In this document: positions 1,961 through 23,592 of the stretch, piece after piece
How positions within the stretch are numbered: position 1 is the first letter of the stretch
Layout of the letters: each line of letters opens with the position of its first letter
NCBI GenBank assembly: GCA_030428835.1
Contig: JAUIEP010000038.1
Location: 1-34,856, forward strand
Origin: Gammaproteobacteria bacterium
Lineage (GTDB): Bacteria; Pseudomonadota; Gammaproteobacteria; Pseudomonadales; Halieaceae
DNA length: 34,856 bases
Direction: 5' to 3'
Made by a program: the position numbers and the translations under genes
The notes under the pieces: model-generated
What the model saw: the letters and a program-made list of their open reading frames with translations, nothing else
The model's database searches: none
What the model was told of the DNA's origin: nothing

Positions 1961-1980
1961 GCCCCTTTCCTCTCCCGAAT

Positions 1981-2017
1981 ACGTTAATTGACGTACCCCG
2001 CTGCGTCGCTTGACGCA
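1981..2017. promoter_or_regulatory. Inverted repeats upstream of the urea operon sigma-54 promoter
   Basis: Two dyads lie side by side. ACGTTAATTGACGT (1981-1994) is symmetric at 12 of 14 positions. TGCGTC-GCTT-GACGCA (2002-2017) is a perfect 6+6 inverted repeat. The second is centred about 96 bases before the predicted start site, the usual distance for an enhancer-binding activator. Its TGC-N10-GCA layout is close to, but one base shorter than, the NtrC dyad TGCAC-N7-GTGCA, so NtrC binding is only a possibility. Confidence 0.4.
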
Positions 2018-2126: not shown

Positions 2127-3254
2127 ATGAAAAAAAGTCTTTACGGAGCGGCGGGCGCGGTGCTGTTGACCGCGACATCGGTGCCGGCCCTTGCCGGGGC
2201 GAAAATCGAGATTGGAGAGGAGTCCTGGGTCAGCGTGGGTGCCGGTATCCGCACTGCCTTCACCGCGGTGGAGGACGGCGCGCCAAGCGGCGACGACTAC
2301 AGTACTGACTTCGACGTCCAGAACATCCGGCTGTATTTCACCGGCCAGATCACGGACAAGATCGGTATCACGTTCAACACCGATGAGATCTTCGGCGACG
2401 GTCCGGTGGACACGCTCGACGTGATCGCGCGTTTTGAGTTCAGCGAGGCCTTCAACGTCTGGATGGGCCGCATGCTGACGCCGGCGGACCGCATCGAGAT
2501 GAACGGCCCGTTCTATACCGTGAGCTGGAACCAGTACACGGTGCCCCTGTACCCGTCCGACCAGGGCGGTGACGCCGGCCAGTACGGGCGCGACGACGGC
2601 CTCACCATCTGGGGCGACCTCGGCAAGTTCGACTACGCCGTCGGCGCCTTCGAGGGCCTGAGCGGCGGCCCCAACGACGAGGACAACCTGCTGTACGCGG
2701 CCCGCTTCGCGTTCCATATCCTGAACGAGGAGAACAGCCCAGCCTACTACACCAGCAGCACCTACTTCGGCGGCGAGGGCAATATCCTCACGGTCGCGGC
2801 CTCGTTCCAGACCCAGGACGGCGGTACCGGCAGCATCGCCGAGTCCGGCGATTTCGAGGGCTTCACCGTGGAGATCTTCTCCGAGACGGTGCTGGGCGAC
2901 GCGGTGCTCAACTTCGAGGCCGAGTACAAGGAGTTCGACGCGGACTACACCGTGGGCTCGCCGGCGGCGGGCGACTGCTTCTGCCTGTTCGACGGGGAGT
3001 CCTACTTCGGGACCGCCGCCTTCCTGTTTCCCGGGAAGATGGGGCCTGGCCGTATCCAGCCCTACCTGCGCTATGTCGAGAACTCGCCCTCCGACGGTGA
3101 CGACTCCGACCTGACGGAGTTCGGTGTGAACTACTGGATTTCCGGTTACAACGCCAAGCTCAACGTCAACTTCGGCACCGGCGACGCCAACATCAGCGGC
3201 TACAAGGGCGATGATGTCGATTCGTTCTCCATCGGCGTACAGCTACAGATCTGA
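2127..3254 (+). CDS. Outer-membrane porin, probable urea/short-chain amide porin
   Basis: A 375-residue protein with a signal peptide (MKKSLYGAAGAVLLTATSVPALA, cleavage after about residue 23). The rest is rich in alternating aromatic and acidic strands and ends in the outer-membrane signature IGVQLQI. No transmembrane helix is apparent in the mature part, as expected for a beta-barrel. It is the first gene after the sigma-54 promoter and lies 30 bases upstream of urtA. In Methylophilus methylotrophus the fmdC porin precedes the fmdDEF amide/urea transporter in the same way, so this porin probably lets urea or amides cross the outer membrane. GGAG at 2113-2116 supports the start. A less specific phosphate-selective-porin-like annotation remains possible. 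Confidence 0.8.
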   Translation: MKKSLYGAAGAVLLTATSVPALAGAKIEIGEESWVSVGAGIRTAFTAVEDGAPSGDDYSTDFDVQNIRLYFTGQITDKIGITFNTDEIFGDGPVDTLDVIARFEFSEAFNVWMGRMLTPADRIEMNGPFYTVSWNQYTVPLYPSDQGGDAGQYGRDDGLTIWGDLGKFDYAVGAFEGLSGGPNDEDNLLYAARFAFHILNEENSPAYYTSSTYFGGEGNILTVAASFQTQDGGTGSIAESGDFEGFTVEIFSETVLGDAVLNFEAEYKEFDADYTVGSPAAGDCFCLFDGESYFGTAAFLFPGKMGPGRIQPYLRYVENSPSDGDDSDLTEFGVNYWISGYNAKLNVNFGTGDANISGYKGDDVDSFSIGVQLQI

Positions 3255-3284: not shown

Positions 3285-4571
3285 ATGAATTTCAAGAAAC
3301 TCGTTTCGAAAGCGGCCCTCGCCGCCGGCGCGGCGGTGCTGAGCACCAGCCTCTATGCCGCCGACACCATCAAGGTCGGGGTGTTGCACTCGCTCTCCGG
3401 CACGATGGCCATCAGTGAGACCACGCTCAAGGACACGGTCCTGATGATGGTCGAGGAGCAGAACAAGAAGGGCGGCGTAATGGGCAAGAAGCTGGAGGCC
3501 GTGGTGGTCGACCCCGCCTCGAACTGGCCCCTGTTCGCGGAGAAGACGCGGGAACTGCTGACCAAGGAGGAGGTGGACGTCATCTTCGGTTGCTGGACGT
3601 CCGTGTCGCGCAAATCCGTGCTGCCGGTCATCGAGGAGCTGAACGGGTTGCTGTTCTACCCGGTGCAGTACGAGGGCGAGGAGAGCTCCAAGAACGTGTT
3701 CTATACGGGTGCCGCGCCGAACCAGCAGGCCATCCCCGCGGTGGATTACCTCATGAACGACATCGGCGCGACGCGCTGGGTGCTGGCGGGCACTGACTAC
3801 GTCTACCCGCGCACCACCAACAAGATTCTCGAGGCCTATCTCAAGGCCAAGGGTGTCGCCGCGTCCGACATCATGATCAGCTACACGCCGTTCGGTCACT
3901 CCGACTGGCAGAGCATCGTCGCGGACATCAAGAAGTTCGGCAGCGCGGGCAAGAAGACCGCGGTCGTGTCCACGATCAACGGCGACGCCAACGTGCCGTT
4001 CTACAAGGAACTGGGTAACCAGGGCATCTCCGCGGAAGACATCCCGGTCGTGGCGTTCTCGGTGGGTGAGGAAGAACTCTCCGGTATCGACACCAAGCCG
4101 CTGGTCGGCCACCTCGCCGCCTGGAACTACTTCCAGAGTGTCGAGAGCGACGAGAACGAAGCCTTCATCAAGCAGTGGAAGTCATTCATCGGCGACGACA
4201 AGCGCGTGACCAACGACCCCATGGAGGCCACCTATATCGGCTTCAACATGTGGGTGAAAGCGGTTGAGAAGGCGGGCACGACGGACGTCGACGCGGTCGA
4301 ACAGGCCATGATCGGCATGACCACGCCGAACCTGACCGGCGGCGTGGCCACGATGGGCAAGAACCATCACCTCTCCAAGCCGGTACTCATCGGTGAGATC
4401 CAGGAAGACGGACAGTTCCTGGTGGTGTGGGAAACCGACGGACTGGTGCCCGGGGATGCATGGTCGGACTTCCTGCCCGGTTCCAAGGACATCATTGCCG
4501 ACTGGACGGCCCCCATCAAGTGCGGCAACTACAACACCGTCACCAAAGCGTGCTCGGGCCAGAATTATTGA
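3285..4571 (+). CDS. urtA: Urea ABC transporter, substrate-binding protein UrtA
   Basis: A 428-residue periplasmic binding protein of the Leu/Ile/Val-binding superfamily, UrtA/FmdD branch. A signal peptide covers about residues 1-25 (ending SLYAA). The mature protein starts with the typical KVGVLHSLSGTMAISE and contains FGCWTSVSRKSVLPV and GLLFYPVQYEGEESS, both characteristic of urea-binding UrtA. It captures urea in the periplasm for UrtBC. The ATG has GAGG ten bases upstream. It is followed by a strong terminator before urtB, consistent with higher expression than the permease genes. A related short-chain amide specificity cannot be excluded, but the linked urease favours urea. Confidence 0.95.
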   Translation: MNFKKLVSKAALAAGAAVLSTSLYAADTIKVGVLHSLSGTMAISETTLKDTVLMMVEEQNKKGGVMGKKLEAVVVDPASNWPLFAEKTRELLTKEEVDVIFGCWTSVSRKSVLPVIEELNGLLFYPVQYEGEESSKNVFYTGAAPNQQAIPAVDYLMNDIGATRWVLAGTDYVYPRTTNKILEAYLKAKGVAASDIMISYTPFGHSDWQSIVADIKKFGSAGKKTAVVSTINGDANVPFYKELGNQGISAEDIPVVAFSVGEEELSGIDTKPLVGHLAAWNYFQSVESDENEAFIKQWKSFIGDDKRVTNDPMEATYIGFNMWVKAVEKAGTTDVDAVEQAMIGMTTPNLTGGVATMGKNHHLSKPVLIGEIQEDGQFLVVWETDGLVPGDAWSDFLPGSKDIIADWTAPIKCGNYNTVTKACSGQNY

Positions 4572-4647: not shown

Positions 4648-6282
4648 TTGAAGCCTCGCTGGACAGTTTTGTTCACCCTGGTACTGGTCCTGTGTTGCGC
4701 CGCCGCGTCGGCACAGGAAACGGGCGACCCCAACGAGCTGCGCGCACTGGCGCAGCAACTGGCCGGCGCCTCCCTGAGCAAGATGCCGCCTATCCTGGAG
4801 CAACTCGGGGAGACCGGTGGCGAACGCGTCGTCCCGCTGCTGCGGGCGTTGCTGGAGGGCGACCTGTACAAGGTGAAGAGCACGGACGAGATCGTCCTGG
4901 GTGTCGAGCAGGGCGACGGCTACGCCGCCAGCGACGCGCTGGACGGCACCGCCCTCGGGGAGTACCCGTCATCTGACCTGAAAAAACTGCGCGTGAACAA
5001 TTCGGTGCGCGTGCAGTTGCGCGGCATCATCGCCCGGCTGACGCTCGGCAGCGACAAGGTCGCGGTGCGCAAGGAGGCGGTGCGCAACATACTGGAGCGG
5101 CCCGACGAAGAGGGTGTCACCCTGCTGCGCGCGGCGTTGCTGCAGGAGACCGACGCGACGGTGGCCGACCTGCAGCGGCTGGCCATCGCCCTGTACGACA
5201 TCAACCATACCGACGATCCGGCGCTGCGCCTGGAGTCGCTGCAACACCTCGAGGGCAGCGTCGAGCCCGACGCCAGGAACACGCTGTTGCGGCTTGTGGA
5301 GCAGGACGGCGACGGCAATTACCTGGAGCCCAACCCTGTTATCCGCGCCAGGGCGACCGCCCTGTTGCAGAACATCGAGAGCAAGGTCGAGTTCTACGAG
5401 CTGCTCGAGACCATATTCTTCGGGCTGAGCCTGGGGTCCGTGCTGCTACTGGTGGCGACCGGCCTCGCGATCACGTTCGGCGTGATGGGCGTGATCAACA
5501 TGGCCCACGGCGAGCTCATCATGCTCGGGGCCTACACCACGTATGTCGTACAGCAGCTCATGCCCGGCAACATCGCGCTGTCGATACTCGTGGCGATCCC
5601 GGCGGCCTTCGTGGTCTCCGGCCTGGTCGGCATCGTCATCGAGCGCGGCGTCATCCGCTTCCTGCACGGGCGCCCCCTGGAGACGCTGCTGGCGACCTTC
5701 GGCATCAGCCTGGTGCTGCAGCAGGCGGTGCGCACCATTTTCTCGCCGCTAAACCGGCAGGTGGCCACCCCGGACTGGATGTTCGGCTCGCTCGAATTCA
5801 ACGCGGTCTTCTCGATCACCTACAACAGGCTGTACGTGCTGCTGTTCGCGCTGCTCGTGTTCTTCCTGCTGCAGCTGATCCTCAAGAAGACGCCGCTCGG
5901 CCTGCAGGTGCGCGCGGTATCGCAGAACCGCGACATGGCGCGTTCGGTCGGTATCCGCACCGAGTGGGTGGACGCCATGACGTTCGGCCTCGGTTCGGGC
6001 GTGGCGGGACTGGCCGGCGTGGCGCTGTCCCAGCTCACCAACGTGGGGCCCAACCTCGGGCAGGCCTACATCATCGACTCGTTCATGGTCGTGGTCTTCG
6101 GCGGTGTCGGCAACCTGTGGGGTACGCTGGTCGGCGGCTTTACCCTGGGCATCACCAACAAGTTCCTGGAGCCGGTGACCGGCGCCGTGCTGGCCAACAT
6201 CCTGGTGCTGGTGTTCATCATCCTGTTTATCCAGAAGCGCCCGCGCGGCCTGTTCCCGCAGAAAGGGAGAGCGGCCGAGTGA
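4648..6282 (+). CDS. urtB: Urea ABC transporter, permease UrtB
   Basis: A 544-residue inner-membrane permease of the LivH family. After a signal-like segment (residues 1-22) comes a long, mostly helical extracytoplasmic region to about residue 245, typical of proteobacterial UrtB. The permease core then runs from ETIFFGLSLGSVLLLVATG to the end with about eight or nine membrane segments. The LivH-type segments GVMGVINMAHGELIMLGAYT and VVVFGGVGNLWGTLVGG are present. It pairs with UrtC to form the urea channel. The start is TTG at 4648 with GGAG at 4636-4639, eight bases upstream. It lies just after the terminator, so its expression depends on read-through. Confidence 0.95.
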   Translation: MKPRWTVLFTLVLVLCCAAASAQETGDPNELRALAQQLAGASLSKMPPILEQLGETGGERVVPLLRALLEGDLYKVKSTDEIVLGVEQGDGYAASDALDGTALGEYPSSDLKKLRVNNSVRVQLRGIIARLTLGSDKVAVRKEAVRNILERPDEEGVTLLRAALLQETDATVADLQRLAIALYDINHTDDPALRLESLQHLEGSVEPDARNTLLRLVEQDGDGNYLEPNPVIRARATALLQNIESKVEFYELLETIFFGLSLGSVLLLVATGLAITFGVMGVINMAHGELIMLGAYTTYVVQQLMPGNIALSILVAIPAAFVVSGLVGIVIERGVIRFLHGRPLETLLATFGISLVLQQAVRTIFSPLNRQVATPDWMFGSLEFNAVFSITYNRLYVLLFALLVFFLLQLILKKTPLGLQVRAVSQNRDMARSVGIRTEWVDAMTFGLGSGVAGLAGVALSQLTNVGPNLGQAYIIDSFMVVVFGGVGNLWGTLVGGFTLGITNKFLEPVTGAVLANILVLVFIILFIQKRPRGLFPQKGRAAE

Positions 6283-7409
6283 ACCACAGTCTTTATGGGC
6301 AGTTCTCGGCCCTCCACCAACTGCGCGAGCGCGCGCCGCTGTTCCTCGCGGTGCTGTTCGGCGTCACCATCTACGCCGCGACCTGCAACCTGCTGCTGGC
6401 CGAGGACTCGGTCTTCCATGTCAGCACCTACACCGTCACGCTGCTGGGCAAGTACCTGTGCTTCGCGCTGCTGGCCATGGCGGTCGACGTGGTCTGGGGT
6501 TACTGCGGCATCCTCAGCCTCGGGCACGGCGCCTTCTTCGCCCTCGGCGGCTACGCCATGGGCATGTACCTCATGCGCCAGATCGGCGACCGGGGCGTCT
6601 ACGGCAATCCGCTGCTGCCCGACTTCATGGTATTCCTCAACTGGCAGGAACTGCCCTGGTACTGGCACGGCTTCGACCAGTTCTGGTTTGCCATGCTCAT
6701 GGTGCTGCTGGTGCCCGGCGTGCTCGCGTTCGTGTTCGGCTTCCTCGCGTTTCGCTCGCGCGTGGCCGGCGTGTACCTCTCGATCATGACCCAGGCGCTG
6801 ACCTACGCGCTGATGCTCGCCTTCTTCCGCAACGAGATGGGTTTCGGCGGCAACAACGGTCTTACCGACTTCAAGGACATCCTCGGTTTCGACCTGCAGG
6901 CGGACGGCACGCGCGTGGTGCTGTTCGTGATCACGGCGGTTGTGCTGGGGCTGGCGTACTGCACCAGCCAGCTCATCCTCAGTTCGCGCTTCGGGCGCGT
7001 GATCGTGGGCGTCCGCGACGCCGAGGCCCGCGCGCGGTTCGTGGGCTATCGCACCGAGATGTACAAGGTCTGGCTGTTTGTTTACTCGGCGCTGCTGGCG
7101 GCGATGGCAGGCGCTCTGTACGTGCCCCAGGTGGGCATCATCAACCCCGGCGAGTTCTCGCCGCTCAATTCCATCGAGATCGTGGTGTGGGTCGCGGTCG
7201 GCGGCCGCGGCACGCTGTACGGCGCGGTGATCGGCGCCTTGTTAGTCAACTACGCCAAGACGCGCTTCACCGCGGTGCTGCCCGAGGTCTGGCTGTTCGC
7301 GCTGGGCGCCTTGTTCGTGTGCGTCACCGTGTTCCTGCCGCGCGGCCTGGTCGGCCTGGCGCAGCGCTGGCGACCGCGTCCGGCCGCAACGCCGGAGGAG
7401 GCCGCGTGA
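6279..7409 (+). CDS. urtC: Urea ABC transporter, permease UrtC
   Basis: A 376-residue LivM-family inner-membrane permease. The open frame extends further upstream, but GTG at 6279 overlaps the urtB stop (GTGA) and gives the family-typical N-terminus VNHSLYGQF. Recognisable parts are WGYCGILSLGHGAFFALGGY, NNGLTDFKDILGF (a UrtC hallmark), RFVGYRTEMYKVWLFVYSA and VVWVAVGGRGTLYGAVIGA. About nine or ten membrane segments are apparent. With UrtB it forms the translocation pore powered by UrtD and UrtE. The 4-nt overlap indicates translational coupling. Confidence 0.95.
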   Translation: MNHSLYGQFSALHQLRERAPLFLAVLFGVTIYAATCNLLLAEDSVFHVSTYTVTLLGKYLCFALLAMAVDVVWGYCGILSLGHGAFFALGGYAMGMYLMRQIGDRGVYGNPLLPDFMVFLNWQELPWYWHGFDQFWFAMLMVLLVPGVLAFVFGFLAFRSRVAGVYLSIMTQALTYALMLAFFRNEMGFGGNNGLTDFKDILGFDLQADGTRVVLFVITAVVLGLAYCTSQLILSSRFGRVIVGVRDAEARARFVGYRTEMYKVWLFVYSALLAAMAGALYVPQVGIINPGEFSPLNSIEIVVWVAVGGRGTLYGAVIGALLVNYAKTRFTAVLPEVWLFALGALFVCVTVFLPRGLVGLAQRWRPRPAATPEEAA

Positions 7410-8242
7410 GCGTCAGGGACGTCATGCAGGAGGTCGCCCGGCGCGACCACGTCTGGCCCTTCCTGATGCCGAGTCGGGGGCCGCGGGTGGACGTGTCGCA
7501 CAGCGTCATTCTCTACATCGAGGGGCTGTCGGTGTCCTTCGACGGCTTCAAGGCCCTCAACAACCTGAACCTGTACGTGAACGACGGCGAGCTGCGCTGC
7601 CTCATCGGGGCCAACGGCGCGGGCAAGACCACGCTGATGGACATCATCACCGGCAAGACGCAGCCGGACGAGGGCGAGGTGTACTTCGGGCGCTCCATCG
7701 ACCTGCTCGGCCGCAGCGAGGCGGAGATCGCCGAGCTGGGTATCGGCCGCAAGTTCCAGAAACCCACGGTCTTCGAGGCGCAGACGGTGTACGCGAACCT
7801 CGAACTGGCGATGAAGTCCGACAAGCGCATCCTGCCGGTGCTGACCTCCCGGCTGACGCCCGAGAAGCGCGAGCGCATCGACGAGATACTCGACACCATC
7901 GGCCTGTCGGAACAGCGCGCGCTGGACGCGGGCTCGTTGTCGCACGGCCAGAAGCAGTGGCTGGAGATCGGCATGCTGCTGATCGCCGACCCCAGGGTGC
8001 TGCTGGTGGATGAACCGGTGGCCGGCATGACCGCGCAGGAGACCGAGCGCACGGCGCAGCTGCTCACGTCGCTGGCGGGGGAGCGCACGGTGATCGTCGT
8101 CGAGCACGACATGGAGTTCGTGCGCAGCATCGCGCGCACGGTCACCGTGCTGCACCAGGGTTCGGTGCTCGCCGAGGGCACCATGGACCAGGTGCAGAAC
8201 AACCCCGACGTGATCGAGGTGTACCTGGGGGAAGAGCAATGA
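7406..8242 (+). CDS. urtD: Urea ABC transporter, ATPase UrtD
   Basis: A 278-residue ABC ATPase. GTG 7406 overlaps the urtC stop by 4 nt and was chosen over upstream in-frame positions. The roughly 30-residue extension before ILYIEGLSVSFDGFKALN is usual for UrtD. Walker A is GANGAGKTT (residues 68-76), the signature is SHGQK (179-183, a His in place of the common first Gly), Walker B is LLVDEP (199-204) and the H-loop His is 234. It hydrolyses ATP on the cytoplasmic face of UrtBC. It overlaps urtE by ATGA. Confidence 0.95.
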   Translation: MSVRDVMQEVARRDHVWPFLMPSRGPRVDVSHSVILYIEGLSVSFDGFKALNNLNLYVNDGELRCLIGANGAGKTTLMDIITGKTQPDEGEVYFGRSIDLLGRSEAEIAELGIGRKFQKPTVFEAQTVYANLELAMKSDKRILPVLTSRLTPEKRERIDEILDTIGLSEQRALDAGSLSHGQKQWLEIGMLLIADPRVLLVDEPVAGMTAQETERTAQLLTSLAGERTVIVVEHDMEFVRSIARTVTVLHQGSVLAEGTMDQVQNNPDVIEVYLGEEQ

Positions 8243-8934
8243 TCCGCCTCGAGAAGGTCAACCAGAAATACGGCGGCACGCAGATCCTGTGGGACCTTGA
8301 TCTCCAGATCGAGGCCGGTTCCTGCACCTGCATCATGGGTCGCAACGGCGTGGGCAAGACCACGCTGCTCAAGTGCCTGATGGGCCTGTTGCCGATCCAC
8401 TCCGGCACGCTCGAGATCGGCGGCGAGGACTACGTGCGGCGCAACGCGGAATACCGGCCGCGCCAGGGTATCGGTTACGTGCCCCAGGGTCGCGACATCT
8501 TCCCCCTGCTCACGGTGGAGGAGAACCTGCGCACGGCCTTCGCCGCCGGGCGCACCCCGGGCCGCAGGATCCCGGACAGGGTGTTCGAACTGTTCCCGGT
8601 GCTTAAGGACATGCTGCGCCGCCGCGGCGGCGACCTGTCCGGCGGCCAGCAGCAGCAACTGGCCATCGGCCGCGCGCTGGTGCTGGACCCGCAGATACTC
8701 ATCCTCGACGAACCGAACGAGGGCATCCAGCCGAATATCGTCAAGCAGATCGGCGACGTGATTACGCTGCTCAACCAGCAGGACGGGATGACCGTGATCC
8801 TGGTGGAGCAGAAACTCGGCTTCGCGCGCCGCGTGGGCCGGGAGTTCCGCCTCATGGAGAAGGGACGCGTGGTGGCCACCGGCCCCATGCAGGACCTCTC
8901 CGACGAGCTTATCGCCAGGCACCTGGCGTTGTAA
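8239..8934 (+). CDS. urtE: Urea ABC transporter, ATPase UrtE
   Basis: A 231-residue LivF-type ABC ATPase, the second nucleotide-binding subunit. Walker A is GRNGVGKTT, the Q-loop region is IGYVPQGRDIFPLLTVEENL, the signature is LSGGQQQQ, Walker B is ILILDEP followed by NEGIQPNIV, and the H-loop position carries Gln (LVEQKLGFA), as is common in this subfamily. ATG 8239 overlaps the urtD stop by 4 nt. Confidence 0.95.
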   Translation: MIRLEKVNQKYGGTQILWDLDLQIEAGSCTCIMGRNGVGKTTLLKCLMGLLPIHSGTLEIGGEDYVRRNAEYRPRQGIGYVPQGRDIFPLLTVEENLRTAFAAGRTPGRRIPDRVFELFPVLKDMLRRRGGDLSGGQQQQLAIGRALVLDPQILILDEPNEGIQPNIVKQIGDVITLLNQQDGMTVILVEQKLGFARRVGREFRLMEKGRVVATGPMQDLSDELIARHLAL

Positions 8935-10063: not shown

Positions 10064-10366
<303 letters not shown>

Positions 10367-10424
10367 AGGCTTGGCCGATGACGCACCGGTCAACAACGAC
10401 CAGGCCAGTAGAGAGGACGCGAGG

Positions 10425-10741
10425 ATGAAACCCGGAGAACTGTTCCCCGCCGACGGGGAGATCGAGTTGAACGCGGGCAGACCCACCGTGCAACTGCGCG
10501 TGACCAACACCGGCGACCGCCCGGTGCAGGTCGGCTCGCACTACCATTTTTATGAAGTGAACCCCGCGCTGGAGTTCGACCGCGACGCGGCGCGCGGTTT
10601 CCGCCTCAACATCGCCTCGGGCACCGCGGTGCGCTTCGAACCGGGCCAGGACCGCGAGGTGGAACTGGTGGCCTACGCAGGCGCGCGCAGGGTGTTCGGT
10701 TTCCGCGGTGAAGTGATGGGGTCACTGGAGGAGGGCGGCGC

Positions 10742-10745
<4 letters not shown>
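10425..10745 (+). CDS. ureB: Urease beta subunit UreB
   Basis: A 106-residue urease beta subunit: [20 protein letters not shown], then [26 protein letters not shown] and [13 protein letters not shown] 10425 is preferred to an in-frame TTG at 10371. It matches the conserved family start and has AGAGGA at 10412-10417. The TTG start would add 18 non-conserved residues. The gene overlaps ureC by ATGA at 10742-10745. Confidence 0.95.
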
Positions 10746-12445
<1,700 letters not shown>

Positions 12446-12453
12446 GGTACGCC

Positions 12454-12909
12454 ATGATCGAAGTCTACGAACGCCTGCCGGCGGCGCCCAGCGAACGGAT
12501 CCACGACCAGCTCGTGCTGGATCACCTGCAGCGTGAGAAGGGTCGCCTGCGCGCGCTGTCGTCCGGTGGCCTGGATGTCGGCATCTTTCTCAAACGCGGG
12601 CAGACCCTGCGCGTGGGGGAGATGCTGCGCTCGCGCTGTGGCAAGTATCTCGTGGTCGCGGGCGCGGAGGAGGAGGTGCTGCGCGCGGAAGCGGATGACT
12701 GGCTCGACTTCAGTCGCGCCTGCTACCACCTCGGCAACCGCCACACGAAGGTGCAGGTCGGCGAACGCTGGCTGCGCATCGCGCGCGACCACGTGCTCGG
12801 CGAGATGTTGCGCGACCTGGGCCTGCGCACGGTTGAGGAACGCGCGGTGTTCATTCCCGAACCCGGCGCCTACGCCGGTCGCGGCCATGGCCACCACCAC
12901 GCTCACTGA
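12454..12909 (+). CDS. ureE: Urease nickel metallochaperone UreE
   Basis: A 151-residue UreE, which binds nickel and hands it to the UreDFG complex. The peptide-binding domain covers the N-terminal half (LVLDHLQREKGRLRALSSGGLDVGIFLKRG). The metal-binding domain contains YHLGNRHTKVQVGERWLRI and DHVLGEMLRDLGL. The tail GHGHHHAH supplies five extra histidines (145, 147, 148, 149, 151). Those last codons overlap the start of ureF in another frame. Confidence 0.95.
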   Translation: MIEVYERLPAAPSERIHDQLVLDHLQREKGRLRALSSGGLDVGIFLKRGQTLRVGEMLRSRCGKYLVVAGAEEEVLRAEADDWLDFSRACYHLGNRHTKVQVGERWLRIARDHVLGEMLRDLGLRTVEERAVFIPEPGAYAGRGHGHHHAH

Positions 12910-13564
12910 GGGCGCGCTGCTGCGCCTGCTGCAGCTCGCCAGCGCCGCGCTGCCGGTGGGCGGCTACGCCTTTTCCCAGGCGTTGGAAATGGCGGTGGAA
13001 CTGCGCTGGGTCAGCGACGAGGCGGACACCGACGCGTGGCTGCGGCAGCAGTTGCAGTACAGCGTCGCGCGCGTGGACGTGCCGCTGCTCCTGCGCCTGC
13101 ACCGGGCGGCGTGCGCCGGTGATGTGCGCGCGCTGGTTTACTACAACGGCTATTGCCTCGCCTGTCGCGAAACCGCGGAGCTGCGCCTGACCGACACCGC
13201 GATGGGCGAGGCCCTGTGCCGCCTGCTGCGCGACCTGGGCGAGCCGGTCCCGCCGCTCGCGGGCGAGATCAGCTACACCGCGGCATTCGCCTGGACCTGC
13301 GCGCAACGCGACATCGACGCCGCGGCGGCGAGCCACGGTTACCTGTGGTCCTGGCTGGAGAACCAGGTGGCCGCCGCGACCAAGCTGGTTCCGCTGGGGC
13401 AGGCGTCGGCGCAGCGGTTGCTCGGCGCTCTGCTGCCCCTGCTGGCAGAGGCGCACAGCCTCGGCGCGCAGGTCGCGGACGACGATATCGGGGCGTCGCT
13501 GCCGGCGCTGGCACTGGCCAGTAGCTGGCACGAGACCCAGTACACACGTTTGTTCAGATCCTAG
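12887..13564 (+). CDS. ureF: Urease accessory protein UreF
   Basis: A 225-residue UreF, which gates the UreG GTPase in the nickel-insertion complex. Family blocks include [54 protein letters not shown] and [21 protein letters not shown]. The frame is open upstream through ureE, but ATG 12887 gives the normal family start. It overlaps the 3' end of ureE by 23 nt, an unusually long overlap that falls on the His-tail codons and implies translational coupling. Confidence 0.93.
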
Positions 13565-13578
13565 AAAGGAGAGTCTTG

Positions 13579-14220
<642 letters not shown>

Positions 14221-14262: not shown

Positions 14263-15201
14263 TCAGTCGTCGTCCAGCAGGAAGCGCAGGGCGATCGCGG
14301 CCGCGGAGGTGCGGTTGTCCACCTCCAGTTTGCGGAAGATCTGTTCCAGGTGCTTGTTCACCGTGCGCGGGCTGGTGTCGAGGATCTGGCCGATCTCGCG
14401 GTTGGTCTTGCCGTTGCCTATCCAGTACAGCACCTCGGACTCGCGCTCGGTGACCGGCAGGTGCACGCGCAACTTCTGCGCGCCGGTAGGCGCCTTGCCG
14501 TCCAGCAGTTTGAGCAGGATGCCGTCGCCGTCAGTGCGTTCCACCAGCTTGACCTCCAGCGGATAGTCCAGCGCCTGCAGGCGCAGCGCCTGCCCGGCGG
14601 CGGGCGTGAAGGCCAGCCAGTGGCGCAACTGCCCGGCGAGTTCCTCGGCCAGCCACGCCTCGGTGACACCCGCGCGCTGCAGCAGTGCCCGCGCCTGTGG
14701 CGTCGCCCACTGCATGACGCCGCGGTTGTTCACCGTGAACAGGTGCTGCCCCGTGCTGTCCAGCGCGAGCTGCGCGCTCTGCTTCAGGTGGGCGTTGGCC
14801 AGGTGCACGCGCATGCGCGCCACCAGTTCGTCGATGTTCACGGGCTTGGTCAGGTAGTCCACGCCGCCCGCGTCCAGTCCGCGCACGATGCTCTGCGTGT
14901 CCGACAGGCCGGTCATGAAGATCACCGGTATGTCGGCCAGCCGTGGTTCCGCCTTCAGCAGGCGGCAGGTCTCGAAGCCGTCCAGGGTGGGCATGATGGC
15001 GTCGAGCAGGATGATGTCCGGGCTGATCTTGCCCGCGATGGCCAGCGCCTGGCGGCCCTCCAGCGCGATCAGTACGGTATAGCCCTGCTGTTCCAGGGCG
15101 GCGTTCAGCATGCTCAGGCTGTCCGGCGAGTCGTCGACGACCAGGACGATACCCCGGGTGCCCTGTAGTGTGACTTCCGCGGTTTGCGTTGCGTGCGACA
15201 T
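14263..15201 (-). CDS. REC-LuxR response regulator paired with the NCS1-sensor kinase
   Basis: A 312-residue two-component regulator. The receiver domain (about 17-130) has acidic pocket Asp23-Asp24, phospho-acceptor Asp67 in IILLDAIMP, Thr97 and Lys119. A middle segment (about 140-235, TGQHLFTVNNRGVMQWATPQ) looks PAS-like. A LuxR/GerE DNA-binding domain (about 245-305) contains PVTERESEVLYWIGNGKTNREIGQ. The initiating ATG shares its A with the stop of the upstream kinase gene (TGATG), so the two are translated together and are almost certainly cognate. Its targets are unknown; the adjacent urease/urt operon and its own operon are the obvious candidates. LuxR-type regulators do not normally activate sigma-54 promoters, so it may act at another promoter or modulate RpoN control. 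Confidence 0.9.
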   Translation of the reverse strand: MSHATQTAEVTLQGTRGIVLVVDDSPDSLSMLNAALEQQGYTVLIALEGRQALAIAGKISPDIILLDAIMPTLDGFETCRLLKAEPRLADIPVIFMTGLSDTQSIVRGLDAGGVDYLTKPVNIDELVARMRVHLANAHLKQSAQLALDSTGQHLFTVNNRGVMQWATPQARALLQRAGVTEAWLAEELAGQLRHWLAFTPAAGQALRLQALDYPLEVKLVERTDGDGILLKLLDGKAPTGAQKLRVHLPVTERESEVLYWIGNGKTNREIGQILDTSPRTVNKHLEQIFRKLEVDNRTSAAAIALRFLLDDD

Positions 15202-18200
15202 CAGACTGTACTCCTTTTCAGCAGGTCCACGATTTCCGTGTAGCGCATCTGTCGCGCCAACAGGCCCAGTTGTTCGAGCGCGGAGAGCGGCAGCAGCCCG
15301 CCCTGCTGCAGCTGGTCGAGTTCATCGTTTACGCCGCGCGAGTAGCCGATCTCCGCGAACGCCCGCAAGCGGCTGACGTTGGCGGCGGTGCCGGCGGAGA
15401 TCGCGAGCGACAGGTGTTCGCGCTGCGCCGTCTCCTCGGGCCAGCGGTAGATCCACTCGAGGTCCAGCAGTGCGGCGAGCAGGTCGGTGAGTGCCGCCAG
15501 CCGCAGCGGCTTGACCATGTAGGCGTCGTGCGCCGTGTCCGGGTCATTCCCGGCGGGGCGTTCCTGCGCGTCGGCGGACACCATCACGATTGGCGCCTCG
15601 ACGCCGCGCTCACGGAGGCGGCGCGCGAGCGCAAGGCCGTCCATGCCGGGCATGGAGACATCGAGCAGGAACACGTCCGGCGCGTTCTCCCGCAGCAGCC
15701 GCAGGCAGTGGTGCGCGTCCTCCGCCTCGATCACCCGGAAACCCAGCGGCACGAGAAAGTCGGCGAGCAGGCCCCGGTGTATCGCCTCGTCGTCGGCCAC
15801 CAGCACGGTCTTCACGTCGCCCTGGTAGCCGGTGATCATCTGGCTCGCGGAGCCATAGGCGGGCGCGGTGTCCACGCGGGTCAGCATCAGGGTCAGTGTG
15901 AAGGTGCTGCCGGCGCCGGGCGCGCTCTGTACATCGAGGTCGCCGCCCATGATCTCCGCCAGCAGCTTGACGATGGTGAGGCCGAGGCCCGTGCCGGCGA
16001 TGTCCGCGGCCTCGTGGCTGTGCACCCGCTCGAAGGGGTTGAAGATGCGCGGCAGGTCCTGCGCGTCGATGCCGATGCCGGTGTCGATCACGCTGATCCT
16101 GGCGACCTGGTTGCGGTAGCTGGTGCGCAGCGTCACCTCGCCCGTGTGCGTGAACTTGACGGCGTTGGAGAGCAGGTTGATGAGAATCTGCCGCAGGCGC
16201 TTGCCGTCGGTGATCACAAAGCGCGGTAGCCCCGCGTCGGCGACATAGGTGAAGCGGATGTTCTTCCCGGCTGCCTGCAGGCTGAACATGTCAACCAGTT
16301 CGTCGAGCATGGACGCGAGGTCCACCCGGTCGCGGTAGATCTCCAGCTTGCCCGCCTCGATGCGCGAGATGTCCAGCAGGCCCTCGATCAGGTCGGACAG
16401 GTATTCACCGGAGCGGCGCATGATCGCCAGTGAATCGCGGCGGTCGGCGGGGATGCGCTCGTCGCGCGCCAGGATCTGCGCGTAGCCGAGTATGGACTGC
16501 AGCGGCGTGCGCAGTTCGTGGCTGATGCCGCCCAGGTAGCGGCTCTTGGCATCGTTGGCCGCCTCGGCGAGTTCCTTGGCGGTCTGCAGTTCCAGGTCAG
16601 TCCGCCGGTGCGCGTCGATCTCCTCCAGCAGCAGGCCGGTCTGCCGGGCCGACTCCTCCTGCGCCACCGTGCGACTCTCGTGGGCGAGCAGGAACAGCCA
16701 GGCGATGACCCCGAAGATGATGAGCAACAAGAAGAACAGCGTCTGCAACATGTCGCGCAGCGATTGCGCCAGCACCGGGTCCTGCGGACTGCTGTGGTAG
16801 TAGGCCAGGGACAGCATCCCCGCGCAGGCGAGGGAGATGAGCGTGAGGATGCCCAGCAGTCGCGCAAGGCGGGTATCGAGCAACGCCAGGTAGCGTTCCG
16901 GCACGACCTTGCCCAGCAGTAGCAGCGTCTGCGTGGAGAACCGCGCGTCGTCCTTGCAACTGTCCTGGCAGCGTGAGTCCAGTGTGCAGCACAGCGAGCA
17001 GATGGGCCCCTGGTAGGCCGGGCACAGGCTCATGTCCTCGGTCTCGAAGTGGTTTTCACAGATCACGCACTCGTGCTCGCTGTGTGCGAGCAGCGCCTCG
17101 TCCGGCCCCCGGGCGATGTAGTAGCGGCCGCCGGTCACCCAGGCGATCAACGGCACCATGATGAAGGTGCAACCCAGCGTGATGAAGTGGGTGAGCGCCT
17201 GGGCGTTGTCTCCCAGCATGCCGAGGTGGCACAGCATGCCCACCGCGGTGGCCACGAACATGGAACCCACACCCACGGGATTGATGTCGTAGAGGTGGGC
17301 CCGCTTGAACTCGACAAAAGGCGGGCTCAGGCCCAGCGACTTGTTGATCAACAGGTCGGCGCTCAGTGAGCCCAGCCAGCTCACCGCGATGATCGCGAAG
17401 GCGGAGAGGATATTTTCCAGGGCGCGGTAGATGCCCAGTTCCATCAGCAGCAGGGCAATGCTGACGTTGAACACCAGCCACACCACGCGGCCCGGGTGAT
17501 TGTGCGTGAGCCGGGAGAAGAAGTTCGACCAGGCGATGGAGCCGGCGTAGGCGTTGGTGACGTTGATCTTGAGCTGCGCGATGATCACCATCACGCCCGC
17601 GAGTACGAGGGCGACACCCGGCGATTGTGTGACGTAGCTGTACGCGGCCTGGTACATGTGGGTGGGGTCCGCCGCCAGGTCCGTACCCACCCCCTGGCTG
17701 AAGGCCAGCCAGGCGAGGAAGGAGCCGAACAGCATCTTGGGGATGCCGATGAAGACCCAGCCGGGGCCCGCCATGAGCAGCGCGGCCCACCAGCGCGCGC
17801 GCCCGGTCTCCTCTTGCGGCGGCAGGAAGCGCAGGTAGTCGACCTGTTCGCCGATCTGCGCCATCAGCGCGAACAGCACGGAGGAGGCGGCGCCGAACAA
17901 CAGCAGGTTGAAGTGGCCGTCGTGCCGCGGCGAGTCCGTGGCGCCGGTGAACGTCGTCCAGCGCTGCACCGCGTCCGCCTCGTGGTAGATGACCGCCGCC
18001 AGCGCCATCACCTGCAGCGCCAGCCACAGGTAGTGGGTACCCACCTGGAAGCGGGAGATAAAGGTGATGCCGTGGGTCACGATGGGAATCACCGCCACGG
18101 CGCAGAGGATATAGCCGATGGCGGGCGGGATGCCGAACAGCGCCTTCAGCGCCATGGCGAGGATGGCGGCCTCGATGGCGAAGAACAGGAAGGTGAACGA

Positions 18201-18575
18201 CGCGTAGATGAGAGAGGTGAGCGTGGAACCCAGGTAGCCGAAGCCCGCCCCGCGCGTGAGCAGGTCGATGTCCACGCCGTACTTCGCCGCGTGGTAGGTG
18301 ATGGGCAGCCCGGTGACGAAGAGCACCAGCCCCACGGTGAGTATCGCCAGTGCGGCGTTGGTGAACCCGTAGCTCAGGGTGATCGCGCCGCCGATGGCCT
18401 CGAGGGCGAGGAACGCGGTGGCGCCCAGCGCGGTCAGCGCGACCACGCCGGGGCTGAAGCGACGCGCGCGCTTGGCGGTAAAGCGCAGGGCGTAGTCTTC
18501 CAATGTCTGGTTCGCGACCCACTGGTTGTACTGGCGGCGGGTGCGGAATATCTCTTGCGAGGGGCGCGCGTTCAC
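15201..18575 (-). CDS. Hybrid histidine kinase with NCS1-permease sensor domain and Cys-rich module
   Basis: A 1124-residue fusion. Residues about 40-485 form a complete multi-span transporter resembling NCS1 nucleobase/hydantoin/allantoin permeases, including GEQVDYLRFLP and KINVTNAYAGSIAWSNFF. Residues 503-540 hold eight cysteines in a C-x2-C...C-x7-C-x2-CC-x5-C-x3-C pattern, a likely metal-binding module. Two more membrane helices follow (about 570-590 and 613-631), then a coiled-coil linker. HisKA has the phospho-acceptor His686 (ISHELRTP). HATPase has N804, DTGIGID (831-837) and GTGLGL (861-866). A C-terminal receiver has Asp928-Asp929, Asp972, Ser1000 and Lys1022. The protein probably binds or transports a nitrogenous solute and signals its presence, analogous to SLC5-fused kinases such as CbrA/CrbS but with a different transporter family. 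The start is GTG 18575 with a weak ribosome site. It lies next to the urea operon and has its own sigma-54 promoter. Confidence 0.9.
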   Translation of the reverse strand: MNARPSQEIFRTRRQYNQWVANQTLEDYALRFTAKRARRFSPGVVALTALGATAFLALEAIGGAITLSYGFTNAALAILTVGLVLFVTGLPITYHAAKYGVDIDLLTRGAGFGYLGSTLTSLIYASFTFLFFAIEAAILAMALKALFGIPPAIGYILCAVAVIPIVTHGITFISRFQVGTHYLWLALQVMALAAVIYHEADAVQRWTTFTGATDSPRHDGHFNLLLFGAASSVLFALMAQIGEQVDYLRFLPPQEETGRARWWAALLMAGPGWVFIGIPKMLFGSFLAWLAFSQGVGTDLAADPTHMYQAAYSYVTQSPGVALVLAGVMVIIAQLKINVTNAYAGSIAWSNFFSRLTHNHPGRVVWLVFNVSIALLLMELGIYRALENILSAFAIIAVSWLGSLSADLLINKSLGLSPPFVEFKRAHLYDINPVGVGSMFVATAVGMLCHLGMLGDNAQALTHFITLGCTFIMVPLIAWVTGGRYYIARGPDEALLAHSEHECVICENHFETEDMSLCPAYQGPICSLCCTLDSRCQDSCKDDARFSTQTLLLLGKVVPERYLALLDTRLARLLGILTLISLACAGMLSLAYYHSSPQDPVLAQSLRDMLQTLFFLLLIIFGVIAWLFLLAHESRTVAQEESARQTGLLLEEIDAHRRTDLELQTAKELAEAANDAKSRYLGGISHELRTPLQSILGYAQILARDERIPADRRDSLAIMRRSGEYLSDLIEGLLDISRIEAGKLEIYRDRVDLASMLDELVDMFSLQAAGKNIRFTYVADAGLPRFVITDGKRLRQILINLLSNAVKFTHTGEVTLRTSYRNQVARISVIDTGIGIDAQDLPRIFNPFERVHSHEAADIAGTGLGLTIVKLLAEIMGGDLDVQSAPGAGSTFTLTLMLTRVDTAPAYGSASQMITGYQGDVKTVLVADDEAIHRGLLADFLVPLGFRVIEAEDAHHCLRLLRENAPDVFLLDVSMPGMDGLALARRLRERGVEAPIVMVSADAQERPAGNDPDTAHDAYMVKPLRLAALTDLLAALLDLEWIYRWPEETAQREHLSLAISAGTAANVSRLRAFAEIGYSRGVNDELDQLQQGGLLPLSALEQLGLLARQMRYTEIVDLLKRSTV

Positions 18576-18870: not shown

Positions 18871-19386
18871 TCAGGACTGCCGGATGCCCGTCGCGTCGGA
18901 TGCCTTGAACACGGCCGTCGGCTCCACGGCCTGGAACGCGAGCACCGGCAACACCCGCGACGTCGACGCCTGGTAGTCCGCGTAGAACGGGTGGCAGTCG
19001 ATGAAGAACGTCCAGAGCTTGTCCCGCTCGGCACCTTCGGCCTCGCGCCACGTGGCGCGGAACGCCTGCGTGGCGATCTGTATCTCCAGCTCCGGGCTGG
19101 CGATGATATTGAGGTACCACTCCGGGTGGTGATCCGCGCCGCCCTTCGAGGCGCACACGATCACCTCGCCGCCGATGTCGGCGTAGGTGAGCGGCGTGAT
19201 GAAGGTCTTGCCGCTGTTGCGGCCGCGGTATTTCACCAGGCAGTGCGTGGCGAAGTAGCGGCCGCCGACGGCGGTGATGTCCATGATGTGGCCCTCCACA
19301 CCGCCCGAGGTGAGATAGGCCTCACGGTGATCCGTGACCCAGTCGCGGCGCGTGGCGCTGATGGCGGCGGATGATTCGTCACTCAT
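18871..19386 (-). CDS. Nitroreductase-family deazaflavin-dependent oxidoreductase (DUF385/Ddn-like)
   Basis: A 171-residue protein of the split-beta-barrel DUF385/Ddn family, whose best-known members use coenzyme F420H2 to reduce quinones or nitro compounds. The family core is recognisable: KYRGRNSGKTFITPLTYADI, then VIVCASKGGADHHPEWYLNI and ASPELEIQIATQAF. It is the last gene of the leftward arm after the CoA-transferase and EthD genes, so a redox role in the same pathway is likely. A paralogue lies at 28761-29207 on the other arm. F420 use is not proven; some relatives bind other flavins or have no known cofactor. Confidence 0.85.
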   Translation of the reverse strand: MSDESSAAISATRRDWVTDHREAYLTSGGVEGHIMDITAVGGRYFATHCLVKYRGRNSGKTFITPLTYADIGGEVIVCASKGGADHHPEWYLNIIASPELEIQIATQAFRATWREAEGAERDKLWTFFIDCHPFYADYQASTSRVLPVLAFQAVEPTAVFKASDATGIRQS

Positions 19387-19425
19387 GTTGTGCTCCTCTC
19401 AATCGTTGTCGAACGCGTGCGCCGT

Positions 19426-19839
19426 TCAGTCGCCATACCTCAGGTCGACATGGGTCGCCTCGCCGTTGGGGCCCATGGGCGAGTCCCATTCTATGACCGA
19501 GCAGACGGGATTGGCATGGGAGGCGAAGAGTTTCTGCTCGTCCGCCTTGATAGCCGCCAGTCGCTCGGGGTCCTGCATGACGCGCTGCGAGTTCTCGAAG
19601 TCCTCGCGGCTGTTCCACCAGATCTCCATGATGCAGTCGTAGCCCGGGTCGTGGACCTCGCCGGTCACGGGGTTCTTCTCGTGCTGCAGGTAGCGCCTTA
19701 CGTAGCGCACGGCGTTGGGTATGGAGGGCGAGCGCCCCATGCGCTTGGACAACTGCGAATGCTGGTTCTCGTAGTAGTCCATGAACTCCTCCATGGACAT
19801 GTCCGGGTGCTTGCGGAAAAAACAGATCTGCTTGAACAC
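19426..19839 (-). CDS. EthD-domain (dimeric alpha/beta-barrel) protein
   Basis: A 137-residue protein of the EthD/dimeric alpha-beta barrel type: MFKQICFFRKHPDMSMEEFMDYYENQH is the typical opening, and YDCIMEIWWNSREDFENSQ the typical second strand-helix unit. EthD proteins accompany P450 systems in ether degradation and several CoA-ester catabolic clusters; their biochemical role is poorly defined. The start is GTG 19839 with a GAGGA ribosome site upstream. It lies 184 bases after the CoA-transferase gene and 39 bases before the DUF385 gene, in the same direction. Confidence 0.82.
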   Translation of the reverse strand: MFKQICFFRKHPDMSMEEFMDYYENQHSQLSKRMGRSPSIPNAVRYVRRYLQHEKNPVTGEVHDPGYDCIMEIWWNSREDFENSQRVMQDPERLAAIKADEQKLFASHANPVCSVIEWDSPMGPNGEATHVDLRYGD

Positions 19840-20023
19840 GTCGGGTCCTCGTTATGTCGGTGTCGTGTGCGCCGATGCGATTCCATGTGTTCCGGGTACA
19901 GCGGCGCAACGTTATTCAAAGTAATAGCCGCGCAACCCGTCGAATGCAACCACGGGATCGCGCGCAATCCCCGCCGGGCGTTGGTTATCCTGCAGGCAAG
20001 AGGCGGGTGCTGCTCGCCGGCTG

Positions 20024-21244
20024 TCAGGGAATAACGCCCTGCGCCTGCAATGCGGCGATGCGTTCCCAGTCGTAGCCCATCTCGAGCAGCACGGCCTCTG
20101 TATGTTCGCCGAGTTCCGGTGCCCGTCGCAGCGCCGGGGGAGTCTCGTCGAACTGCACGGGGACCGCGGGCAGCCGGTATGCCGGAGCGCCGCCGGCTGC
20201 CTCGACCTCGCCGATGTAGCTGTTGGCGATAACCTGCGGGTCGTCGGGCAGTTCCTCCATGCGTTGCACGGGAGCCCACGGAACGTCGACGCTGCGCAGT
20301 ACCTCCTTGCACTGTGTAAAGCTGCGTTTACCGAACTCGCCGTCCAATGCCGCGATGCACTCGGCGCTGTTGGCGCGCCGCGCTGCGATATCCGCGAACC
20401 TCGGGTCGTCCACCAGGTCCTCGCGGCCGAGCGCGCGACACAGCTCCGGCCAGTGGCGATCACCCTGCAGCATCATGAGCTGGATGAAGCGCCCGTCGGC
20501 GGCGCGATAGGTGCCCGTGAGTGGGTTGGGGGAGTTCGTGCGTTCGCCCGGGCGCGGAATGTCGCGGCCCTGGAGCACGCTTAGCAGATCCGAGGAGAGC
20601 GTCCACATGGCTGTCGCAAGCAACGAGACGTCGACCACCGACCCCTCTCCCTTGCGCTGTTGTTTCAGCAGGGCGCCGGCGACGCCGAAAGCAATCGCCA
20701 TGGCGCCGTTGCGGTCGCCCATCGCGCCGCGTTGCGTGATCGGGTAGTCCCGGTCGGGAGGCGTCAGTGCATCGGCGACGCCGCCGCGCGCGAAAAACGC
20801 CGAGGCGTCGTAACCGGCCTGGTCGGCGTCCGGGCCGCGCACACCGAAGCCGTGCCCCCTGGCATACACCAGGCGCGGGAAGCGCGCGCGCAACTGGTCG
20901 GCGTCCAGTCCCAGGCGCTGCAGCGCCGCCGGTCGCAGGCTGGTGAGAAAGACATCGGCGGACTCCAGCAACTGGAACAGCACATCGCGACCGGCTTCCG
21001 CTTTAATATCGATGGCGAGGGAGCGCTTGCCGCGGTTGGCGAGTGCGACCGACAGGTTGACGCCGCCGCTGTCCGTGCCGATGCCCTGGGTGGCCAGCGC
21101 GCGGTAGGGGTCGCCGTCGGGGTGTTCGACGCGAATGACATCGGCGCCCCAGTCGGCGAGCAGGGCGCCGGCCACGGGCACGAAAACCCACTGGGCGAGT
21201 TCGACCACGCGTACGCCCTCGAAGATATCGGTCACGGGTTCCAT
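20024..21244 (-). CDS. CaiB/BaiF-type (family III) CoA-transferase
   Basis: A 406-residue family III CoA-transferase, normal in length. It starts FEGVRVVELAQWVFVPVAGALLADWGADVIRVEHP, and has SLAIDIK, SADVFLTSLRP and YARGHGFG. The expected nucleophile is Asp146 in GYDASAFFARGG, and GSVVDVSLL follows. It should move CoA between an acyl-CoA donor and a carboxylate, activating a substrate or intermediate for beta-oxidation. It is the first gene of the leftward arm, opposite the TetR gene, with a good promoter carrying a possible TetR box. The carboxylate substrate cannot be read from sequence. Confidence 0.92.
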   Translation of the reverse strand: MEPVTDIFEGVRVVELAQWVFVPVAGALLADWGADVIRVEHPDGDPYRALATQGIGTDSGGVNLSVALANRGKRSLAIDIKAEAGRDVLFQLLESADVFLTSLRPAALQRLGLDADQLRARFPRLVYARGHGFGVRGPDADQAGYDASAFFARGGVADALTPPDRDYPITQRGAMGDRNGAMAIAFGVAGALLKQQRKGEGSVVDVSLLATAMWTLSSDLLSVLQGRDIPRPGERTNSPNPLTGTYRAADGRFIQLMMLQGDRHWPELCRALGREDLVDDPRFADIAARRANSAECIAALDGEFGKRSFTQCKEVLRSVDVPWAPVQRMEELPDDPQVIANSYIGEVEAAGGAPAYRLPAVPVQFDETPPALRRAPELGEHTEAVLLEMGYDWERIAALQAQGVIP

Positions 21245-21336
21245 GGGGTGCCCCTGTGTTGGTGAGACGTCTTGCAGACGCTGCGAAGGCCTTGCCAGCC
21301 GTTACCTTCGGCGGCCTTTTCGATCGACTGCAAGTT

Positions 21337-21365
21337 ACTCTAAAGGCAACAAAAAGTTGTGTCAA
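21337..21365 (-). promoter_or_regulatory. Sigma-70 promoter for the leftward arm
   Basis: On the minus strand TTGACA (21365-21360, perfect) is followed after 17 bases by TAGAGT (21342-21337, 4/6). The spacer holds the CAAC-N5-GTTG box. Transcription would start near 21330, about 86 bases before the CoA-transferase ATG. Confidence 0.65.
21347..21359. promoter_or_regulatory. Probable TetR-family operator, box 1
   Basis: CAACAAAAAGTTG, an inverted repeat CAAC-N5-GTTG lying exactly between the -35 and -10 of the leftward promoter. The same arms and spacing occur in box 2 on the opposite promoter, next to a TetR gene. Confidence 0.55.
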
Positions 21366-21454
21366 CGCCGCCAGATTTCGGCCGTCTCATTCGCCGCTGG
21401 GCGCTGATAGGGCGGTTTTCCGCCACCCGGGGGCCGTGCCCTCGATCTAAAACG

Positions 21455-21467
21455 CAACTACTAGTTG
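21455..21467. promoter_or_regulatory. Probable TetR-family operator, box 2
   Basis: CAACTACTAGTTG is a perfect palindrome around a central C and shares CAAC-N5-GTTG with box 1. Its last three bases are the first three of the rightward -35 TTGACA, so a bound repressor would block that promoter. Confidence 0.65.
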
Positions 21468-23590: not shown

Positions 23591-23592
23591 CG

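Follow-up and report, generated by a model that had tools for sequence, protein, structure and literature searches.

The 34,856-nt contig JAUIEP010000038.1 (assembly GCA_030428835.1), called the window below and used for all coordinates, encodes a hybrid histidine kinase that begins with a permease domain and lies next to genes for a porin, a urea ABC transporter and a urease. It is fairly probable that this protein is a transceptor-like, urea-responsive NCS1 kinase, whose LuxR-type partner regulator would activate the porin-urt-ure genes. The original prediction, made from the letters of this stretch, had described a complete NCS1-like permease (residues about 40-485) fused to HisKA, HATPase and REC domains, a translationally coupled REC-LuxR regulator and an intact set of phosphorelay residues, and all three descriptions were borne out. 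The sensor and its partner consist of the following parts.

15201..18575 (-): hybrid histidine kinase of transporter type, 1124 aa from a GTG start; alignable with homologues over its full length
17121..18458 (-): NCS1-like permease domain, residues ~40-485; AlphaFold and Foldseek to Mhp1/CodB, hhalign to NCS1
16953..17078 (-): 8-Cys cluster, residues ~500-541; eight Cys invariant in 81/81 aligned sensors
16680..16877 (-): transmembrane (TM) hairpin, residues ~567-632; model helices 569-595 and 600-659, membrane placement presumed
16350..16550 (-): HisKA, residues 676-742, phospho-acceptor H686; Pfam, conservation of H686
15879..16208 (-): HATPase_c, residues 790-899; Pfam
15480..15806 (-): receiver (REC), residues 924-1032, with D972 and K1022; Pfam, conservation
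14263..15201 (-): REC-[PAS-like]-GerE (LuxR type) response regulator; Pfam REC and GerE

Anatomy of the sensor and its partner

The open reading frame of the sensor has the codon bias of a genuine gene (third-position GC 0.92). H686 and D972 are invariant in 81/81 aligned sensors, the window's included, K1022 is present in 80/81 with one gap, and D67 and K119 of the regulator are invariant in 46/46. Together with the HisKA, HATPase and REC domains and the REC-GerE architecture of the partner, these residues place the protein among the hybrid histidine kinases with a LuxR-type regulator. The ATG of the regulator gene shares one base with the stop codon of the kinase gene (TGATG). The centre of the regulator has the order beta-beta-alpha-alpha-beta-beta-beta in the model, and we call it PAS-like, a judgement made only from this predicted secondary structure.

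Two parts of the linker between permease and kinase go beyond the original prediction, as does the palindrome at 1980-1995 described below. The first is a cluster of eight cysteines (C503, C506, C518, C526, C529, C530, C536 and C540), which are all kept in 81/81 sensors, the window's included, and which probably bind zinc. The second is the TM hairpin before the kinase, which continues as one long helix into HisKA in the AlphaFold model of residues 1-660. No Pfam model matched the linker (residues 500-650) above chance level.

NCS1 kinship of the permease domain

Sequence searches of Pfam and the PDB with the permease domain gave nothing useful; residues 2-649 yielded only a chance-level Pfam match to DUF6526 (E 2.9), and PF02133 was absent at E<=10. 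Because these searches were uninformative, fold and profile methods were needed. A model of residues 1-660 was built by AlphaFold with 45 relatives (pLDDT 81.7, pTM 0.83), and the five top matches that Foldseek found for it in the PDB were all Mhp1 or CodB: Mhp1 E 2.2e-8, CodB E 2.4e-8 (TM score 0.76 by target). Comparison by hhalign with an alignment of seven NCS1 permeases gave 98.4% (E 6.6e-15, 360 columns). By predicted structure and profile homology, the permease half of the sensor is an NCS1-fold permease, although Pfam misses it.

The window protein fails the curated cut-off of PF02133 even though the LeuT-type fold and the profile homology are present. Among the stand-alone permeases treated below, L102 (41% identity, 8.6e-8) and L163 (3.6e-9) pass it and L092 does not. 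Membership of the SSF/SLC5 family was rejected, as hhalign gave 0.5% against eleven SLC5 proteins and there was no SSF match in Pfam, and membership of the Amt family was rejected as well, as residues 2-649 had no Amt match and the fold is that of NCS1.

Linkage of the sensor family to urea and amide genes

If the link between sensor and urea genes were accidental, homologues should mostly lie beside unrelated genes, the outcome that had been named as speaking against the original prediction. They do not. Among 85 similarity-picked loci (the best 80 of at least 594 places, and five plasmids), 73 have genes for urea or amide uptake or hydrolysis. A sample of the phylum comprised 398 genomes, 52 of which have the permease, at 58 places; 53 of the 56 loci taken from 50 of them (the window genome and G107 being excluded) have urt/ure or short-amide genes (urt-like ABC, formamidase, amidase) within about 9 kb; of the remaining three, two are truncated contigs and one is a stand-alone permease of 28% identity. 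A sample of the class comprised 369 genomes, 18 of which, including the window's, have the permease. UrtA above its cut-off was found in 14/18 of the permease genomes versus 75/369 overall (Fisher p 1.1e-7), and 11 of the 18 stretches from the other 17 genomes have urea or amide genes, while L090 has only a porin, at the contig edge. The linkage of the sensor to urea and amide genes is thus conserved across many Proteobacteria.

The similarity-picked loci fall into two main classes, one with a urea ABC transporter and urease, the other with a paralogous urt-like ABC transporter, the formamidase FmdA, FmdB and often an amidase. The predicted association with urease is therefore right, but for one type only; the amide type outnumbers that one, with 103 of the 160 permease copies that could be labelled by their neighbours, near-copies included.

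Several loci count against such a linkage. Eight of the 12 unlinked similarity-picked loci are short of most of one or both flanks (L003, L008, L014, L023, L046, L068, L079, L080), but L002, L005, L006 and L009 have full flanks and, judged from these, no urt, ure, fmd or ami gene. Six stretches of the class sample have no urea or amide genes (L088, L091, L093, L096, L100, L101), and three of them (L088, L091, L093) hold orphan sensors with no urt, ure, fmd or ami gene in reach. The genomes of L088 and L093 have the palindrome before a porin-urtA pair elsewhere; that of L091 (G240) has no UrtA above the cut-off.

Copies of the system also occur on plasmids. The Klebsiella variicola plasmid pX39-1 (L081) carries the sensor and a urt-like/formamidase operon near clpK and hsp20, and 15 further Enterobacteriaceae plasmids have, among the matches listed, a sensor match of the same score. 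At least 502 plasmid records have a match that spans 80% of the query. Among the plasmid records listed, the relative is annotated as 'ATP-binding protein' in 19/20 and is unannotated in one. In G249, two full sensors lie within 13 kb (L086:6950-19814), the first with urt-like/fmdA genes.

The binding pocket and the putative ligand

The pocket was mapped onto that of Mhp1 by hand across two alignments via NCS1, a correspondence of limited precision at about 20% identity. The window protein shares with Mhp1 and CodB the NCS1 fold, the TM8 asparagine (Mhp1 N318 = N341) and a 'PDFSR' region, which aligns with VDYLR. In Mhp1, where the roles of the pocket residues are known, W117 and W220 stack the substrate ring. 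Unlike these carriers, the window protein is fused to a kinase and has lost the aromatic pair: W117, Q121 and W220 align with F131, E135 and M238, position 238 being V, I, M or L in 78/81 sensors. Because these positions differ, the pocket does not appear to be of the ring-stacking kind of nucleobase carriers. Six residues of the pocket region (E135, Q240, E243, Q244, N338, N341) are invariant in 81/81 sensors. S312 and T313, the sodium site of Mhp1, align by hand with the invariant K336 and I337.

These replacements bear on the signal, for which the original prediction had named urea itself or a precursor (purine, allantoin, hydantoin); the first gained support, the ring compounds did not. 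A permease domain that senses such a ring compound as a source of urea would agree with a fold whose closest matches are Mhp1 and CodB, transporters of hydantoin and cytosine, but it is very unlikely, because both stacking tryptophans are replaced, with Q121 turned into an invariant Glu, and because the same pocket is found beside formamidase/amidase operons, with stand-alone permeases in urease and formamidase operons. Short-amide operons are the commonest partner of the family (purine genes were not scanned for systematically).

For the window sensor, urea is the best guess, since its clade (n=17, support 100) has 9 members linked to urea, 8 without a label and none linked to amides, and since its genome has no FmdA-type protein and one urtA copy. 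This assignment does not extend easily to the whole family: the sensor tree requires six or more switches between urea and amide labels, and, as a point against a urea-specific pocket, no alignment column separates urea-linked from amide-linked sensors beyond shuffled labels. One pocket may therefore serve a whole class of H2N-C=O compounds. In the strongest form of this idea, every member, the window's included, would be a general amide sensor with formamide, acetamide and urea as agonists, which is possible but not what we favour. The absent column, the repeated label switches and the response of the Methylophilus fmd genes to formamide and urea (described in PMC10781810) all fit it; the window clade, urea-only where labelled, and the genome without an FmdA-type protein do not.

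The lack of a separating residue would also allow the signal to be a common factor such as nitrogen status. That the sensor reports nitrogen status or the transport flux of a partner, with the permease fold as a scaffold, agrees with the four full-flank orphans, which share a clade with the window sensor, and with SLC5 sensor kinases, whose stimuli and transporter-domain role are called enigmatic in PMC7918813. The six invariant pocket residues make it unlikely, as does the near absence of sigma-54 (NtrC-type) promoters before urtA, which a loose pattern found in just 1 of 69 intergenic regions.

A palindromic candidate operator

The palindrome TACGTCA-NN-TGACGTA stands before urtA, porin or fmdA genes. 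In the window it precedes the genes whose expression the sensor would control.

1980..1995 (+): candidate operator TACGTTAATTGACGTA, one mismatch; 131 bp before the porin start
2002..2017 (+): weaker second site with three mismatches; 22 bp downstream of the first
2127..3254 (+): outer-membrane porin, first gene after the candidate operator; NCBIfam porin ExtI E 1.5e-21, below its cut-off
3285..4571 (+): urtA; TIGR03407 above cut-off
4648..6282 (+): urtB; TIGR03409 above cut-off
6279..8934 (+): urtC, urtD, urtE; ABC_tran, and BCA_ABC_TP_C in the urtD frame; named by order and annotated relatives
10064..14220 (+): urease cluster ureA, ureB, ureC, accessory genes, ureG; UreC and CobW/HypB/UreG-type by Pfam

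Motif discovery used 69 intergenic regions (64 of them shorter than 700 bp), which left 43 after dereplication. In these 43, TACGTCAT occurs in 27 versus 0.4 expected, and the dyad CGTCA-2-TGACG is exact in 15 versus 0.02 expected. A scan of the window at <=1 mismatch found one site and none in 100 shuffles, and in the whole 5.23-Mb assembly the copy at 1980-1995 is the sole one at this threshold. Another position of the same genome with two mismatches (C253:7981) was rejected as a second site, being at chance level because the reversed control pattern gave seven matches.

A weight matrix was trained on 24 sites from other loci, with the window, the class sample and the phylum sample outside the training. 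It scores the two window copies at 22.9 and 15.5 and the rest of the window at <=1.3. A site scoring >=13 was found in 12 of the 15 genomes with sensor and regulator (G000, G009, G038, G048, G052, G128, G138, G171, G197, G249, G263, G358; the site of G128 is weak, at 13.4), whereas none of 20 control stretches upstream of urtA from permease-less genomes, five of which have a porin before urtA, reached this score (maximum 6.3). G032, G137 and G279 have other architectures and lie outside the 15-genome count. In two of the genomes, G197 and G128, no urt gene is near the sensor, and the site is found on a different contig, ahead of a porin-urtA pair; the porin-first order of the window, with the site before the porin, also recurs in G038 and at the second urtA of G249. 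Permease genomes also yielded eight stretches upstream of urtA genes that are not near the sensor, and four of these have the site. Of 75 held-out loci, 35 have a site >=13, with 47 sites in total versus a null of 2.2 per set from shuffles, and 43 of the 47 lie upstream of urt, fmd, porin or stand-alone permease genes; a site of L202 that stands only before the sensor gene was left out of the 43. In eight loci (L167, L168, L169, L171, L177, L184, L189, L192) fmdA has its own copy.

Against the palindrome as the general operator of the system stand a number of observations. The window scan at <=3 mismatches is not significant by itself, as 12/100 shuffles reach the same count. G070, G107 and G240 are the three of the 15 genomes that have no classic site, and the other four of the eight urtA stretches away from the sensor have none (L153, L155, L160, and L156, which ends inside the porin). 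The comparison with controls is uneven, since the control stretches are 3 kb (four of them shorter, at 218, 470, 1270 and 1700 bases) and the sensor loci up to 20 kb. Motif discovery, though not matrix training, had included the class-sample loci L094, L095, L098 and L099, and three of the 12 positives (G138, G171, G358) were among its regions. Sensors divergent from ureA (L191, L195, L197, L199, L217) have no recognisable site. In the phylum sample, the classic site (>=10.4) is absent from 29/56 loci, 15 of which have a variant and 14 neither. This variant, TACG-N8-CGTA, is exact in 15 of 18 checked loci without the classic site (mostly from outside the window's class), 128-167 bp before urtA, a raw count with no null; 13 of the 15 are TACGC-N6-GCGTA, a form also present in Bradyrhizobium loci.

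A second strong palindrome (22.4) at L071:14942, apart from the copy near the sensor, lies in a urease cluster, some 50 bp ahead of the start of ureG.

Proposed signal path

In the mechanism that we favour, the ligand of the NCS1-fold domain would be urea, with formamide and other short amides as probable ligands in sister lineages. Binding would shift the permease domain, and the shift would travel via the cytoplasmic 8-Cys module, the TM hairpin and the continuous helix to HisKA (H686). The phosphate would then be passed to D67 of the translationally coupled REC-[PAS-like]-LuxR regulator, which would bind palindromes of the TACGTCA-NN-TGACGTA type. Because one good site lies 131 bp ahead of the porin, the first gene of the porin-urtABCDE-urease series, the most likely role of the pair is to induce urea uptake; it would induce urease too, via a common operon or by read-through.

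Stand-alone permeases and other outputs

The usual wiring of the permease-Cys module is a hybrid kinase with a LuxR partner, but the module also occurs in other settings. L102 is a stand-alone permease of 540 aa without a kinase, encoded after the ureG of a urease cluster and ahead of a NicO nickel permease gene; it keeps only four cysteines (CxxC...CSLC) of the cluster, and its very long branch makes its placement on the tree unsure. L092 is a stand-alone permease of 559 aa with all eight cysteines. Its gene diverges from a sensor-regulator pair, and fmdA, fmdB and amiE come next, in the slot that an ABC transporter holds at other loci; no urt match was found within 20 kb. This is the one case of receptor and stand-alone permease side by side, under one palindromic candidate operator. 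From gene order, the neighbours of the stand-alone proteins look like those expected of a urea or amide permease. The sensor would share its fold and pocket with a permease of urease and formamidase operons, so that a receptor and a transporter for one ligand would be sister proteins.

The neighbourhood of L102 also touches on the idea that the 8-Cys cluster is a sensor of a metal such as nickel, which urease needs. Eight invariant cysteines and an adjoining NicO gene would suit it; the same eight cysteines in sensors of formamidase operons leave it hardly credible, since formamidase is not known to be a nickel enzyme.

The outputs vary. Kinases without REC occur (L096, L164), and in G137 the permease-Cys module is fused to PAS-GGDEF-EAL, i.e. 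to cyclic-di-GMP turnover (L100:7349-11020, 1223 aa), and to PAS-kinase-REC (L101:9023-12841, 1272 aa). The L100 and L101 stretches have no urt or ure match, and the list of UrtA genomes does not include G137. Whether all this amounts to a distinct transporter-derived receptor class, in which an NCS1 permease with an 8-Cys module reads urea or short amides, feeds varied outputs and is sister to an unnamed urea/amide permease, is in our view evenly balanced.

Two further arrangements were seen. At L164:8099-10756, a permease-Cys-kinase without REC lies beside a separate REC-kinase protein, with the formamidase gene fmdA downstream, and L165 resembles it by its matches. At L163:9249-13673, genes for a carbon-nitrogen hydrolase and a Peripla_BP_5 protein, presumably of the AmiC kind, come after that of a distant stand-alone NCS1 permease; this is a possible set for amide uptake and sensing.

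Comparison with known systems

Sensors of related design are known. In CbrA and CrbS/MxtR, a transporter domain (SLC5, also LeuT-type) is joined through an intervening module to a histidine kinase with a partner regulator, and CbrA is described as transporting histidine (PMC7918813, PMC13022988); RpuS is a further SLC5/STAC transporter kinase (PMC9100948). The window sensor has the same order of transporter domain, module, kinase and partner regulator, but differs from the SLC5/STAC kinases in its NCS1 domain (98.4% versus 0.5% by hhalign), its 8-Cys linker module, its LuxR-type regulator and its urea and amide operons. Like Ks-Amt5, which senses ammonium, also a small nitrogen compound, it joins a kinase to a nutrient transporter put to a new use; Ks-Amt5 has the Amt fold and, in the available part of its description, no HAMP-type transducer module and no identified response regulator (PMC5764959). 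Judged by its architecture, the sensor would work like CbrA or Ks-Amt5, yet it belongs to neither family. NCS1 would thereby join SLC5 and Amt as folds turned into sensor kinases.

FmdB, which is encoded in the amide-class loci, is presumably also the putative regulator of the fmd genes in Methylophilus. The fmdCABDEF genes of that organism, which are induced by formamide and urea, resemble the amide class in their porin, formamidase and amide/urea ABC uptake; against a general role of our sensor, the available text mentions a different putative positive regulator for them and no sensor (PMC10781810). The present family may offer a sensor for this induction. In Ectopseudomonas guguanensis G3, urt operon III pairs a second urtABCDE with neighbouring hybrid-kinase and LuxR-regulator genes, and fmdA (ACMHYQ_02750) adjoins this cluster in the locus-tag numbering; the operon is known from genome annotation, and in the available text the permease domain, the site, the family and its function are not described (PMC13296017). 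We found no study of this sensor family in the open-access literature, a scope outside which most subscription papers lie.

The family offers candidates for sensor, regulator and operator of urea and short-amide uptake in many Proteobacteria, and searching sequences for the palindrome could predict its regulon. With its natural pair of receptor and transporter, it also lends itself to studying how receptors arise from transporters.

Other genes of the window

The porin at 2127..3254 is by its position presumably FmdC-like, and porin matches of 29-60% identity lie near urt genes in several relatives. In the urease cluster, ureA and ureB were named by position and conservation, ureE/F by position only. 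The far side of the window (18871-34837) looks like an unrelated catabolic region: Pfam identified an F420H2_quin_red-type protein (18871-19386) and a CoA-transferase III (20024-21244), beyond which SDR-, MFS- and P450-like open reading frames were recognised by eye.

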